From NCBI GenBank assembly GCA_029821875.1, contig JALGXW010000004.1:1-64000 (forward strand): DNA of 64,000 nt, in the 5' to 3' direction. Within the stretch, counting starts at the first letter, position 1; every line of letters starts with the position of its first letter. This DNA is from Candidatus Hebobacterum abditum. GTDB lineage: Bacteria; Armatimonadota; Hebobacteria; Hebobacterales; Hebobacteraceae. Shown here piece by piece: positions 51,440-56,878 of this stretch. Below the pieces are notes generated by a model. That model worked only from the letters and a program-made list of their open reading frames with translations, did not search any database and had not been told where the DNA came from. Both the position numbers and the translations under genes were made by a program.

Positions 51440-53800
51440 CTACGGCTCGGCCGGGCCCTTCCACACGCTTCCGCCGAAGGTGCAGACGTAGATGATGGAG
51501 TCGTCATCCGGGTCGAACGACACCCGCTGGATGTTCCGGAACGGAATGCCGATGAATGGCTCCCAGCTCTCGCCGCCATCCTTGCTCAGCCACAGCCCGT
51601 GACTGGGCGCACCCTCGCACAGGCACATGTAGACCCAGTCCGGCCGCTTCGGGTGCACCGTGGCTCCGAACACCTCATGGCTCTCTCGTGAGACCCGCTT
51701 CCAGGTCTCGCCGCCATCTGTCGTCTTGTAGAGGCCGCCCTCTCTGTTGTTGGCGTCGGCCGCGCCAAGGTAGATGACATTCGAGTCTCGGGGATCGATG
51801 TCGAAGTCCTTCGGCCACAGCAGCGGCTGCGAGGAGTTGATGCACTCCCAGCTCTCGCCCCCATCGCGGGAGCGGTACAGCCCCGGCCCTTCCCGTACGT
51901 AGCGGTCGTCCTTCCTCAGGGCCGTGACGAGGCAGAACAGCGTGCCGTCATCGTGCAGGATCAGACGGCACGCTCGCTCGTTCGTGTCGGGCGCGCCGAG
52001 GCCGTCCGACTTCTTGACCCACGTCTTCCCATCGTCCGTGGACTTGTAGACACCGGCCTCGAACAGGGAAGCGTAGAGGACGCGGGTGTCCTTCGGACTG
52101 CGCGGATCGAGTACGACCGATACGACTGGCTTGTTCGGCAAACCATCCGAGCTGTCGCGCCATGTCTTCCCGAAGTCTTCACTCAGGCCGACCCCGCCGC
52201 CCGCGCGCGGCCAGTAGTGCTTGCCGGAGATGACGTTGTTGTTCGGGATGTCGTGTAAGTCGGCGAAGGCGCCCCATATCTTCCCCGGGGTTTCGGAATC
52301 GAAGGCCAGCTCGTAGGTGGTGTTCCTGAGCGGCTTATCCCACTGCGAGTACCAGGTCTTGCCAGCGTCCTCGGAGCGAGCGAACTTGATGTCGGTATAG
52401 GCCATGTAGTGGCGGTTCTTCTCGAAGGGATCGATGTAGTAGTGCCAGACCGTCGTCACGACCAGGCCGGTGTTCTCCCATCGATGTCCCTTCGCGACTT
52501 CCGCCTGTCCCGCCGCGGGGCGCGTATGCAGCGTCTCCCAGTTCTTCCCGCCGTCCCGCGTTATCTGGCAGCACATCCAGTCGGTCGTGATGACCATCTC
52601 GGTGTCAGCCGGGTTGATACCCGCGCCGCTCAAGTTCATCTCGGAGCTGCCGAGCTCGGCCGTCAGATAGTTCGGCTCGAGGTTGAACTCGGCCGAATCG
52701 GTTTCGGAGAAGAAGGTCGGCCGCCAGGTCTCGCCGCCGTCGTCGCTGCGGTAGACCTGATTGGAGCGCGCGCGGCACGCGTACACTGTGAGCGGCTTCA
52801 CATTGGTGGTGAGCACGAACTGGTACTGTGGCGCGAACTTCCGCCCCCAGCGCTCGCGCGCCCGGGTGTCTATGTCCGCACCCATCGCCTGCTGCCAAGT
52901 GCGCCCGCGGTCGGTCGACCTGTAGATACCACCGACGTATTGCCCGTCGGCCGCCTCCCCCTCTGTCGTGCAGTAGAGAACGATGTCGTTGTTCTCCGCG
53001 TCCGATCCGCCCGCGAAGTCCAGCAACTCCTTGTCTGGCAAGCCCTCCCCGATCTGCTGCCAGTTCGCTCCCGCATCTTCGGACACGAACACGCCCTCCC
53101 TCGTGCCCGCGAAGCAGCGACGGCCGCCCGTCGAACTGGTCTGATCGATGTGGAAGCCGACGATCTCTCCATCAATGCCTGTGGAGCGCTGCCAGTTATC
53201 GCCGCCATCTGTCGAGAAGAACGTCCCCTCCCAGGCGCCAACAAGGAGGAAGCTGCCGTCGCTGGCATCGATCGCAAGCTCGTTGAGTCCGGCCGGCAGT
53301 CCCTCGCCCAACGGCTCCCAGGTAGCGCCTCGGTCTCTGCTGATGCGCAGCTCCCCTGGATAGCCATGCGCCGCGTAGACGACGTCGGGATCGATCGGAT
53401 GAAAGACTGGCCTGCACCTCGTGTTTCCCATGAGATACTGGTGGTGGAACATCTCCCATGTCTCTCCGCCGTCTGTGGAGCGGAAGGCGCAGCTCATATC
53501 GCAGTTCACGATGATGAGCTTGGGGTCATGGGGTGAGATGGCCGGCGTGAACATGCCCCCGCCGCCGCTGAGCCCGATGCTCTCCCACCTCGCCATCTCC
53601 TCGCGAAGCACATCGTCGGCAATCATGTGGTGCCTCCTCCAGGACTGGGCTGAAGCCCGACGGGACGAGCCGTGCACAAGCAGGCCTGAGGCCACACAGA
53701 GCATGACCAGAACTCCCAAGGCCAGCGCCAGCAGGCGCCGGGCCCTGGCGCAGCGGCCCGGCACACCCGCGTTCTGGCAGTCTGAGGGGAACTCAGGCAT
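51440..53800 (-). CDS. Secreted BNR/Asp-box beta-propeller protein (sortilin-like)
   Basis: Protein of 786 residues. It begins with a signal peptide (LLALALGVLVMLCVASGLLV, ending ASAQ). I count about thirteen Asp-box repeats (S/T-x-D-x-G-x-T/S-W), such as STDGGETW, SRDRGATW, SEDAGKTW and TTDGGETW, typical of beta-propeller sialidase, Vps10 or photosystem II assembly-like proteins. No catalytic residues for sialidase are identified. A second start at 53626 has an excellent ribosome site (GGAGGAGG) but would lose the signal peptide. Function unknown. Confidence 0.83.
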   Translation of the reverse strand: MPEFPSDCQNAGVPGRCARARRLLALALGVLVMLCVASGLLVHGSSRRASAQSWRRHHMIADDVLREEMARWESIGLSGGGGMFTPAISPHDPKLIIVNCDMSCAFRSTDGGETWEMFHHQYLMGNTRCRPVFHPIDPDVVYAAHGYPGELRISRDRGATWEPLGEGLPAGLNELAIDASDGSFLLVGAWEGTFFSTDGGDNWQRSTGIDGEIVGFHIDQTSSTGGRRCFAGTREGVFVSEDAGANWQQIGEGLPDKELLDFAGGSDAENNDIVLYCTTEGEAADGQYVGGIYRSTDRGRTWQQAMGADIDTRARERWGRKFAPQYQFVLTTNVKPLTVYACRARSNQVYRSDDGGETWRPTFFSETDSAEFNLEPNYLTAELGSSEMNLSGAGINPADTEMVITTDWMCCQITRDGGKNWETLHTRPAAGQAEVAKGHRWENTGLVVTTVWHYYIDPFEKNRHYMAYTDIKFARSEDAGKTWYSQWDKPLRNTTYELAFDSETPGKIWGAFADLHDIPNNNVISGKHYWPRAGGGVGLSEDFGKTWRDSSDGLPNKPVVSVVLDPRSPKDTRVLYASLFEAGVYKSTDDGKTWVKKSDGLGAPDTNERACRLILHDDGTLFCLVTALRKDDRYVREGPGLYRSRDGGESWECINSSQPLLWPKDFDIDPRDSNVIYLGAADANNREGGLYKTTDGGETWKRVSRESHEVFGATVHPKRPDWVYMCLCEGAPSHGLWLSKDGGESWEPFIGIPFRNIQRVSFDPDDDSIIYVCTFGGSVWKGPAEP

Positions 53801-54003
53801 GCTCGTACCGTCTCCCAGCCCCCTCCAGTTCGGCTGTCGGCTCCGGACACCTCTCCCGGCCCGCCAGAGCGCCAGGCGGGTCCGAGAACGCCGAAGACGC
53901 CTTCAGAGAGCCCCTGCGCAGATTCCATCTCAGAACCCTGAGAGCACTGTGGAACAACCACATTGGATGGCTTTGAGGCCATTCGCAGTTCTTTCACAAT
54001 CCG

Positions 54004-54099
54004 GCACTCCGAAACGGCAAACTTACCGAGAGGTGAGGACGCAAAGCTATGGGTCTCAGCTGCCGAAGCTGGCTGAGATCGCCAGGCTGCCGAAGGTGC
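54004..54099 (+). promoter_or_regulatory. Cyclic di-GMP-I (GEMM-I) riboswitch
   Basis: The aptamer hallmarks are all present in order. GGCAAAC leads into a CTTACC/GGTGAG stem capped by the GNRA tetraloop GAGA. Next comes GACGCAAAGCTATGGGTCT, the conserved core, then the second hairpin and GATCGCCAGGCTGCCGA, which fits the 3' half with its tetraloop-receptor-like segment. Outer stem is GCAC with GTGC (54004-54007, 54096-54099), plus CGG/CCG. It points toward the pilin operon on the plus strand, with a terminator-like hairpin after it. The G before GCAAA favours c-di-GMP over cyclic AMP-GMP, but alignment is needed to confirm this. Confidence 0.88.
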
Positions 54100-54167
54100 A
54101 ACCGAGCCACGTGAGCTCTGAGTTGCGGCGCTGACGCGTCGGCAGCCGGTATCTGATCGGACCCTCG

Positions 54168-54203
54168 ACCCGTCCTGCAGGGGAACCGACCGGCTGGACG
54201 GGT
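54168..54203 (+). terminator. Terminator-like hairpin downstream of the GEMM riboswitch
   Basis: ACCCGTCC (54168-54175) pairs with GGACGGGT (54196-54203) around a 20-base loop, followed by TTCCCGTTATTT. It is located between the aptamer (ends 54099) and the pilin ATG at 54265, where an expression platform would be. The T-run is interrupted. Confidence 0.6.
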
Positions 54204-54264
54204 TTCCCGTTATTTCGGCGCCCTCCGGAGCCCTCGCGGCCGGAATCTAGGAGGGTCGGATAAG

Positions 54265-54663
54265 ATGAAGATATACCGAAGCAGACGTGGTCTCACTCTT
54301 ATCGAGTGCCTCGTCACTACGGTCATCCTCGGGATCGGGGTGATCGGAGTCGCCGGGATGTTTGCCTGCGCGACGATCTCGGAGCAGAAGGCCAGTCACA
54401 TGGCGCAGGCCCGACACATCGCCGAGGAAGCCCTGGAAGGAGTCCGCGCGGGCGACTTTGCCGTATTCGACCAGAGTTCAGGCGTCACTTCCCTCGACAC
54501 CTCGAGCCTACCGCGCGCGACGGGCGCTATTGCCTGGGAGCCCTACGCGACAGGGGTGGGCGACCTCAAGCTCGTGGCGGTGAACCTCTCTTGGGACTGG
54601 GCAGCGTACAGTTCGGGCACATATAAAGTCGTCACGCTCGTGTCCGCCCCGGGAGGCAGCTAG
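54265..54663 (+). CDS. Type IV pilin-like protein, PilV class
   Basis: Minor pilin of 132 residues. The class III signal RRG-LTLIECLVTTVILGIGV shows a prepilin peptidase cut after Gly and the conserved Glu5. The C-terminal part is beta-rich with no cysteines. The AGGAGG site lies 10 bases upstream of the ATG. It is the first gene after the GEMM riboswitch and 2 bases from the next pilin. PilV proteins help form the pilus tip or bind cells. Confidence 0.86.
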   Translation: MKIYRSRRGLTLIECLVTTVILGIGVIGVAGMFACATISEQKASHMAQARHIAEEALEGVRAGDFAVFDQSSGVTSLDTSSLPRATGAIAWEPYATGVGDLKLVAVNLSWDWAAYSSGTYKVVTLVSAPGGS

Positions 54664-55424: not shown

Positions 55425-55515
55425 GCGGGCCATCTGGGCGTCACCGATGGGCGATGAGATGGGCCCTACTAGATATGCACCGAACTGAAGCGATGCAGTC
55501 AGAGCTGAGAAGCAA

Positions 55516-55580
55516 CCGGGCGGCCGCGCCTGAGGGCGAGGGAAACCGGCAATGCCGCCGACCGGGGCGCGGCCGCCCGG
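55516..55580 (+). other. Perfect 15-bp GC stem in the PilW-PilX intergenic region
   Basis: CCGGGCGGCCGCGCC (55516-55530) pairs exactly with GGCGCGGCCGCCCGG (55566-55580) around a 35-base loop. The intergenic region (55425-55684) has no coding potential I can see. A second hairpin CTCCGA/TCGGAG lies about 30 bases before the next ATG. It may control the balance of pilin expression or be a terminator. Confidence 0.5.
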
Positions 55581-55684
55581 CATCTTGCGGGATGCTCTCG
55601 CACACTGCTCAAGGGCGTGAGGATCTCGGCGGCGACTGCAGCATAGGAGGAGACTCCGATTCTCGGAGCAGCGAGGGATGAACC

Positions 55685-56878
55685 ATGGGTAGCACACGAA
55701 GAAGTGCATGCCGATATAGAGAGCGTGGCTCCATCTTCCTGCTGGCGATGGTGATACTGATCGTCCTCTTGATCTTGGGCGCCTCGCTCATAGAGCGCGC
55801 TCAGACGGCCGTGGACCGCGCGTCGGCCCGGAACCGCCAAGAGCGGGCCTTCCAGCTCGCCGAGGCGGGCATTGAGAAGGCGCTGTGGGATCTCAACCAG
55901 CCCAACGGCTGGATCACCTACGCCGGCGATTCTGATCTCGGACTCCAGGGCGGAACGGTTGACGTTGTCGTCTCCCCACCTCCGTCTGCGCGCGGGGAGT
56001 TCACGTCCACCGTGACCGTCATCTCGACCGGCGTCATCCCCAGCGCACAGGTCGGCCGGACTCACTCCTGCGCGATCCGGATGGTCACGCACAAGGATGT
56101 CAACTACTTCAAGTACGCCATCTTCGGATCAGAAGAGGTCAGCATCGGCAACGGCACGGTCGAGTTGATCACCGACAGCTACGCCTCCGATAGCGGGGAC
56201 TACGGCGGCACCAACATTGCCGCGGCCGGTGACATCGCCACCAACTCGACGAACGCCAACGCGATATACGTCCTCCCTCAGGGCGAGGTCAATGGTGACC
56301 TCTACGTCGGGGCCGGCGCTGCGGACCCGACGGCGTGTGTGGACAACAAGGGCACCGTCAGCGGCACCATCACCACGCTGGACGGCCCCCAGCCTCTGCC
56401 CAGCATCCCCTCCGTGCCTGTCGACGCGATAGAGCTGGGCGACATCTGGCTCGAAAACGATGAGCAACTCGTGCTCGACGCCGGCGTCTACCACGCGACC
56501 GACCTCGAGATCTTCGGCAGCGCCTCGCTCGTCTGCAACGGTGTGGTGACCATCTACATCGACCAGAGTACCGACGGCGGGAGCCCCGACGTCCGCATAG
56601 CCGGAAACGGGATCGCCAACACCTCGCAGATACCGGCCAACCTGACCGTGTTCTGTCTGGACGACGTCGTCTCCGTTGAATTCAGCGGCAACGCCGCCTT
56701 CTACGGCGGCCTCTACGCCCCTAACGCCGACATCGTGCTCAACGCCGGCCATGTCTACGGTTCCGTCGTCGGGAGGACCGTTACGCTCAATGGCTCGAAC
56801 GCCGGCCTGCACTATGACGAGGCGCTGTACGACATGACGGACCCCAACGCAGTGATGCGCTCCTGGGAGGTGCTCTAG
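55685..56878 (+). CDS. PilX-like N-terminus fused to a polymer-forming-like C-terminal domain
   Basis: Protein of 397 residues. GSIFLLAMVILIVLLILGASLIERA resembles PilX, with Gly at the expected cleavage site and a long helix. After about 110 residues comes a Gly/Asn/Val-rich repeating beta-helix-like domain (SIGNGTVELITDSYASDSGDYGG, IAAAGDIATNSTNA, VNGDLYVGAG, GSVVGRTVTLNG), as in proteins with a DUF7305-type domain. It ends with an acidic tail. Third gene of the riboswitch-controlled pilin set. Confidence 0.8.
   Translation: MGSTRRSACRYRERGSIFLLAMVILIVLLILGASLIERAQTAVDRASARNRQERAFQLAEAGIEKALWDLNQPNGWITYAGDSDLGLQGGTVDVVVSPPPSARGEFTSTVTVISTGVIPSAQVGRTHSCAIRMVTHKDVNYFKYAIFGSEEVSIGNGTVELITDSYASDSGDYGGTNIAAAGDIATNSTNANAIYVLPQGEVNGDLYVGAGAADPTACVDNKGTVSGTITTLDGPQPLPSIPSVPVDAIELGDIWLENDEQLVLDAGVYHATDLEIFGSASLVCNGVVTIYIDQSTDGGSPDVRIAGNGIANTSQIPANLTVFCLDDVVSVEFSGNAAFYGGLYAPNADIVLNAGHVYGSVVGRTVTLNGSNAGLHYDEALYDMTDPNAVMRSWEVL

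Follow-up and report, generated by a model that had tools for sequence, protein, structure and literature searches.

An operon of three minor-pilin-like genes in Candidatus Hebobacterum abditum probably has, in its 5' leader, a canonical c-di-GMP-I riboswitch that acts co-transcriptionally as an ON switch. The leader lies within a window of 64,000 nucleotides, which is the whole stretch of DNA analysed (Table 1). Aptamer identity, contact residues, synteny, conservation of the terminator, mutually exclusive helices and folding behaviour were established by computation. We infer c-di-GMP binding, the promoter, the kinetic control and the direction of switching in the cell.

Table 1. Features of the riboswitch leader and the operon, in window positions.
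Feature	Position	Strand	Basis
Promoter-like bipartite element TCTCA-N15-TGTGGAACAA (putative)	53928-53957	+	
Aptamer with extended P1 (GCAC 54004-54007 / GTGC 54096-54099)	54004-54099	+	sequence
c-di-GMP-I (GEMM-I) riboswitch aptamer	54007-54095	+	Rfam
Aptamer 3' half GGCTGCCGA, containing C92; target of the anti-aptamer strand	54085-54093	+	
Anti-aptamer strand TCGGCAGCC, pairing perfectly over 9 bp with 54085-54093	54139-54147	+	shuffle p=0.028
Antiterminator 5' strand CAGCCGGT, overlapping the anti-aptamer strand	54143-54150	+	joint shuffle p=0.002
Intrinsic-terminator hairpin GACCCGTCC...GGACGGGTT, then T-rich tail to 54216	54167-54204	+	
Antiterminator 3' strand ACCGGCTG, in the terminator loop	54189-54196	+	
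Shine-Dalgarno sequence GGAGGG	54250-54255	+	sequence
PilV-like prepilin, 132 aa	54265-54663	+	N_methyl PF07963 above cutoff
PilW-like prepilin, 252 aa	54666-55424	+	prepilin-like N-terminus by eye
PilX/GspK-like protein, 397 aa, with DUF7305 / ice-binding-like adhesive domain	55685-56878	+	

The Aptamer and Its Predicted Ligand

A preliminary description of this DNA had proposed a GEMM (c-di-GMP-I) aptamer, and the motifs it named are all found by inspection, in order, within 54004-54265. The proposal is borne out by an Rfam match at 54007-54095 on the forward strand. Against the covariance model RF01051 the aptamer scores 68.7 bits, with a gathering cutoff of 35, over positions 1-87. P2 is capped by a GNRA tetraloop (GAGA), and complementarity suggests that P1 is extended by the GCAC/GTGC pairing. 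From the aptamer to the ATG of the first pilin gene there are 170 nt on the same strand with a conserved terminator between, the layout of a 5' leader with an expression platform.

At the gathering threshold the whole window contains one Rfam RNA match, and its label is RF03167 (c-di-GMP-I-GGC; 67.7 bits, cutoff 59, E 7.5e-14), which is the outcome of the Rfam clan competition. The window's genome has six c-di-GMP-I aptamers, the window copy included. RF01051 scores higher than RF03167 in all six (68.7-91 versus 67.7-79.5 bits), and in all six the G of the GGC consensus at model position 37 is replaced by A (GACGC[A]AAGC). For both of these reasons the GGC variant is ruled out as the true class, and the aptamer is filed as canonical c-di-GMP-I. 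The name “GGC” would denote the bases at positions 20, 47 and 92, with G replacing A47, judging from the RF03167 consensus.

In Vc2 the ligand is contacted by G20, A47 and C92 (PMC4744006). The Rfam alignment places G54016, A54043 and C54090 at these positions, and the three columns are invariant across 13 aptamers of the class. Since all three contact residues are canonical, c-di-GMP is expected to be bound rather than cGAMP. It is very improbable that the aptamer senses cGAMP instead, or some other ligand that the GGC variant binds. The RF03167 label favours such a ligand, but the model scores and the A in all six copies oppose it. The 3',3'-cGAMP aptamer has A14 at the equivalent of position 20 and C15-G40 as its first P2 pair (PMC6274999), whereas the window has G54016, lacking the A that marks GEMM-Ib, and G54017-C54042.

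Four GGDEF matches are present in the genome, and the two strong ones have the canonical D of GHxxGD. In Hypr cGAMP synthases this D is replaced by Ser. The GGDEF domains examined, a part of the set, have either the canonical D or a degenerate version, not Ser.

The Pilin-Like Operon

The preliminary description named pilV-, pilW- and pilX-like genes behind the aptamer. Three pilin-like open reading frames are indeed present, and the N_methyl cutoff is reached; the names hold only as “like”, as not all of the curated cutoffs are reached. The first frame scores 40.1 bits against TIGR02523 (PilV), under the cutoff of 52.2, and the second has no family match in profile searches. The third exceeds the cutoffs for DUF7305 (PF23981) and pAdhesive_15 (PF20597), with PilX_N at 20.0 bits, under 25.5. 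The second and third genes are separated by a gap of 260 nt (55425-55684), which is also found in the genus relative G001 and is only about 40 nt long in G002.

Behind a c-di-GMP-I aptamer, the same three prepilin genes form an operon in the window's genome (G000) and in G001, G002, G003, G010 and G012. Gene order is kept in tblastn searches, at 45-82% identity in G001, G002 and G003, which belong to the same family, and at 25-33% in G010 and G012, which belong to another. Because the same three genes trail the aptamer in two families, their association is old. The genome also encodes pilus machinery, with nine strong T2SSE/PilB-like matches, seven weaker ones of PilT size and several PilM matches; the division into PilB-like and PilT-size proteins is our own reading.

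Terminator and Candidate Switching Strands

The hairpin that had been reported downstream of the aptamer is confirmed, and the terminator is kept at the same place before the operon in orthologous leaders of four genera. Its arms, GACCCGTCC (54167-54175) and GGACGGGTT (54196-54204), are followed by TTTCCCGTTATTT, and the U-tract is interrupted. A simple terminator scanner does not list the hairpin, whose 20-nt loop exceeds the limits of the scanner. One compensatory pair changes C-G to U-A on both sides. Across the four leaders 91% of cells are paired, versus 29-57% in slid controls, in an alignment whose four sequences are too few for a shuffle control to discriminate. Hairpins of a similar kind (ACCCGYYC...) lie 70-145 nt past many aptamers of the class.

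Between the aptamer and the terminator lies a strand, 54139-54150, with two possible partners, the aptamer 3' half and the terminator loop. The anti-aptamer strand TCGGCAGCC is identical in G001, and the overlapping CAGCCGGT is the perfect complement of ACCGGCTG. The antiterminator is mutually exclusive with both the anti-aptamer helix and the terminator, while the anti-aptamer helix is compatible with the terminator.

Both helices were scored together in a joint shuffle test in which the aptamer and the terminator were held fixed. The p value is 0.002 for the window and 0.001 for G001, whose leader is an ortholog and not independent. The unrelated leader G004a, before a different operon, likewise gives 0.001, and G000a and G001a give 0.03-0.05. 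In the leaders G002c, G003b, G003a, G006a, G010a and G012a p exceeds 0.3, and among them are the other four pilin-operon leaders, which come from outside the genus. As a class-wide rule the anti-aptamer strand alone was rejected, being significant in only part of the 29 leaders.

Nascent folding gives an antiterminator probability of 0.89 at +102 with the aptamer locked versus 0.11 with it free, and of 0.87-0.92 versus 0.00 at +105/+106. With the aptamer free, the anti-aptamer helix has a probability of 0.80-0.92. Similar behaviour is found in G001f, G000a, G001a and G004a, and no clear switch behaviour is seen in nascent folding of G002c, G003b, G002a and G003a.

At equilibrium the full-length RNA favours the terminator even when the aptamer is formed (-87.5 versus -81.3 kcal/mol), and the terminator wins whether the aptamer is locked or free. 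Because the full terminator is favoured in either state, the switch must be kinetic. Kinetic control has been modelled for the Geobacter pilM riboswitch (PMC9262584).

Proposed Mechanism

In the proposed mechanism, the aptamer 3' half would pair with the anti-aptamer strand when c-di-GMP is low. This pairing would tie up the antiterminator strand, so that the terminator could form and halt transcription. With c-di-GMP bound, the 3' half would stay in the aptamer and leave 54143-54150 free for ACCGGCTG. Since ACCGGCTG is made just ahead of the terminator 3' arm, its pairing would delay the terminator and polymerase could enter the pilin genes. The operon is thus predicted to be most likely on at high c-di-GMP, because the modelled antiterminator probability is about 0.9 when the aptamer is locked but does not exceed 0.11 when it is free.

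The opposite direction, with termination promoted by ligand binding as for C. difficile Cd1, is unlikely. Two facts speak in its favour: the terminator coexists with a formed aptamer at equilibrium, and every functional class I switch of C. difficile is an OFF switch (PMC6366702). However, the sole candidate antiterminator uses a strand that is sequestered without ligand, so that the ligand-free RNA would terminate too. An OFF switch is without anatomical support, because the anti-aptamer helix spares the terminator but occupies the strand that the antiterminator needs. Control at the level of translation is still less probable. The Shine-Dalgarno sequence could be hidden by CCCTCC (54221-54226) or GACCCTC (54160-54166), both perfectly complementary within the window, but the complement is lost in the genus ortholog (CACTCC) and in G002c and G003b, whereas the terminator is retained. 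Sequestration was rejected as the main mechanism because the complement is not conserved.

The Upstream Element

The leader is flanked by a divergent BNR/sortilin-like gene (51440-53800, minus strand) and the pilin operon. Upstream of the aptamer, TGTGGAACAA occurs in all 19 leaders of family f1, with 7-10 of 10 positions matching, 47-89 nt before the aptamer. TCTCA precedes it by about 15-17 nt in many leaders, and the bipartite element is also present ahead of the other aptamers of the class. The window has a single such site, and the genome has 10 exact copies, versus 5 of the reversed pattern. The element may be a promoter or an activator site; a sigma-70 promoter scan found none. TGTGGAACAA is found, too, where there is no riboswitch: about 200 nt upstream of a PilM-like gene, and ahead of a response regulator.

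Some other leaders carry a strong hairpin and a boxA-like GTTCTTTGAAAAC directly before the aptamer, at C22:28319-28331 and C71:8877-8889 in the window's genome, with variants before copies a and e. Allowing at most one mismatch, these two are the only sites of the 13-mer in the genome. It was rejected as a part of the window's leader, where only GTTCTTTC is present, and it is absent from the genus ortholog.

One can imagine a layered regulon for surface attachment across the class, although it is doubtful. In it, the TCTCA-N15-TGTGGAACAA promoter, with its own sigma factor or activator, would lead into a c-di-GMP-gated terminator whose loop mimics the aptamer 3' half, and the hairpin with boxA-like GTTCTTTGAAAAC would add an antitermination step in several paralogous leaders.

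Other Aptamers in the Genome and Class

Within the class, c-di-GMP-I aptamers are found in nine of 14 genomes, 29 in total. In the window's genome, other copies lie before a secreted-protein operon (CarboxypepD_reg; C63:27536), an open reading frame without a family match (C22:28343), an SLH-domain surface protein (C71:8778) and a response regulator (C82:85373). These copies likely constitute a c-di-GMP surface regulon. Reading the operon that follows copy G000a as a chaperone-usher system has no Pfam support and was dropped.

An arrangement suggestive of feedback is found at C56:2393-2480 of the window's genome (L015), and likewise in G001c, G002b and G006c, where the aptamer precedes a protein with HD-GYP, GAF and GGDEF domains. 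For these HD-GYP-linked aptamers the best anti-aptamer complement, of 10-12 bp, falls within the coding region, at its first codons, and not in the leader; p is 0.001-0.005 in three genomes. G001c has a similar complement at its first codons, though a better one exists.

The aptamers at G010:C97 (L064) and G012:C1:2373586 (L068), from another family of the class, have a DUF4388-like gene and a pilMNOPQ-like operon behind them, both named by eye. In other Armatimonadota families (L019, L038 and L042), a small FlgM-like gene comes after the aptamer, and ParA or ParB genes lie about 550-610 nt downstream.

Comparison with Known Systems

The preliminary description suggested that such control had perhaps not been described in this lineage. 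No paper on riboswitches in Armatimonadota (Armatimonadetes) was found in the open-licence literature searched, which agrees with the suggestion and is weak evidence for it, and neither pili nor riboswitches come up in the Hebobacteria paper. A GEMM-type switch in Armatimonadota (class Ca. Hebobacteria) has apparently not been described before. In a deep-branching, uncultured class of this phylum, RNA probably senses c-di-GMP directly and so controls pilus and surface genes. GEMM control of pili is thereby extended to one further phylum, which leaves the general picture unchanged, and the pilin-operon leader offers a concrete, testable design for an ON switch.

The fold, the tetraloop stem and G20/A47/C92 are shared with c-di-GMP-I (GEMM-I, RF01051) riboswitches such as Vc1 and Vc2 of Vibrio cholerae, from which the window's riboswitch differs in host lineage (Armatimonadota), expression platform and target operon. 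With c-di-GMP-I-GGC (RF03167) the window's aptamer scores above the gathering cutoff, but it is without the diagnostic G and scores lower than with RF01051. In C. difficile Cdi-2-4, as is predicted here, c-di-GMP turns type IV pilus genes on via a terminator (pilA1; PMC6366702), but through a class II aptamer of unrelated fold and before a major pilin.

Another comparison is with the pilM GEMM-I riboswitch of Geobacter metallireducens, a transcriptional ON switch before a pilus operon (PMC9262584), as is proposed for the leader described here. In both, the aptamer and the terminator fold compete via the aptamer 3' half. The Geobacter riboswitch senses cGAMP (PMC9262584), whereas the contacts in the window predict c-di-GMP. 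In Geobacter the strand of the aptamer also forms part of the terminator, whereas in the window a separate strand would shuttle between the aptamer and the terminator loop. GEMM ON switches on pilus genes were thus already known, and what is new here is the lineage, the target operon and the proposed shuttle-strand expression platform.
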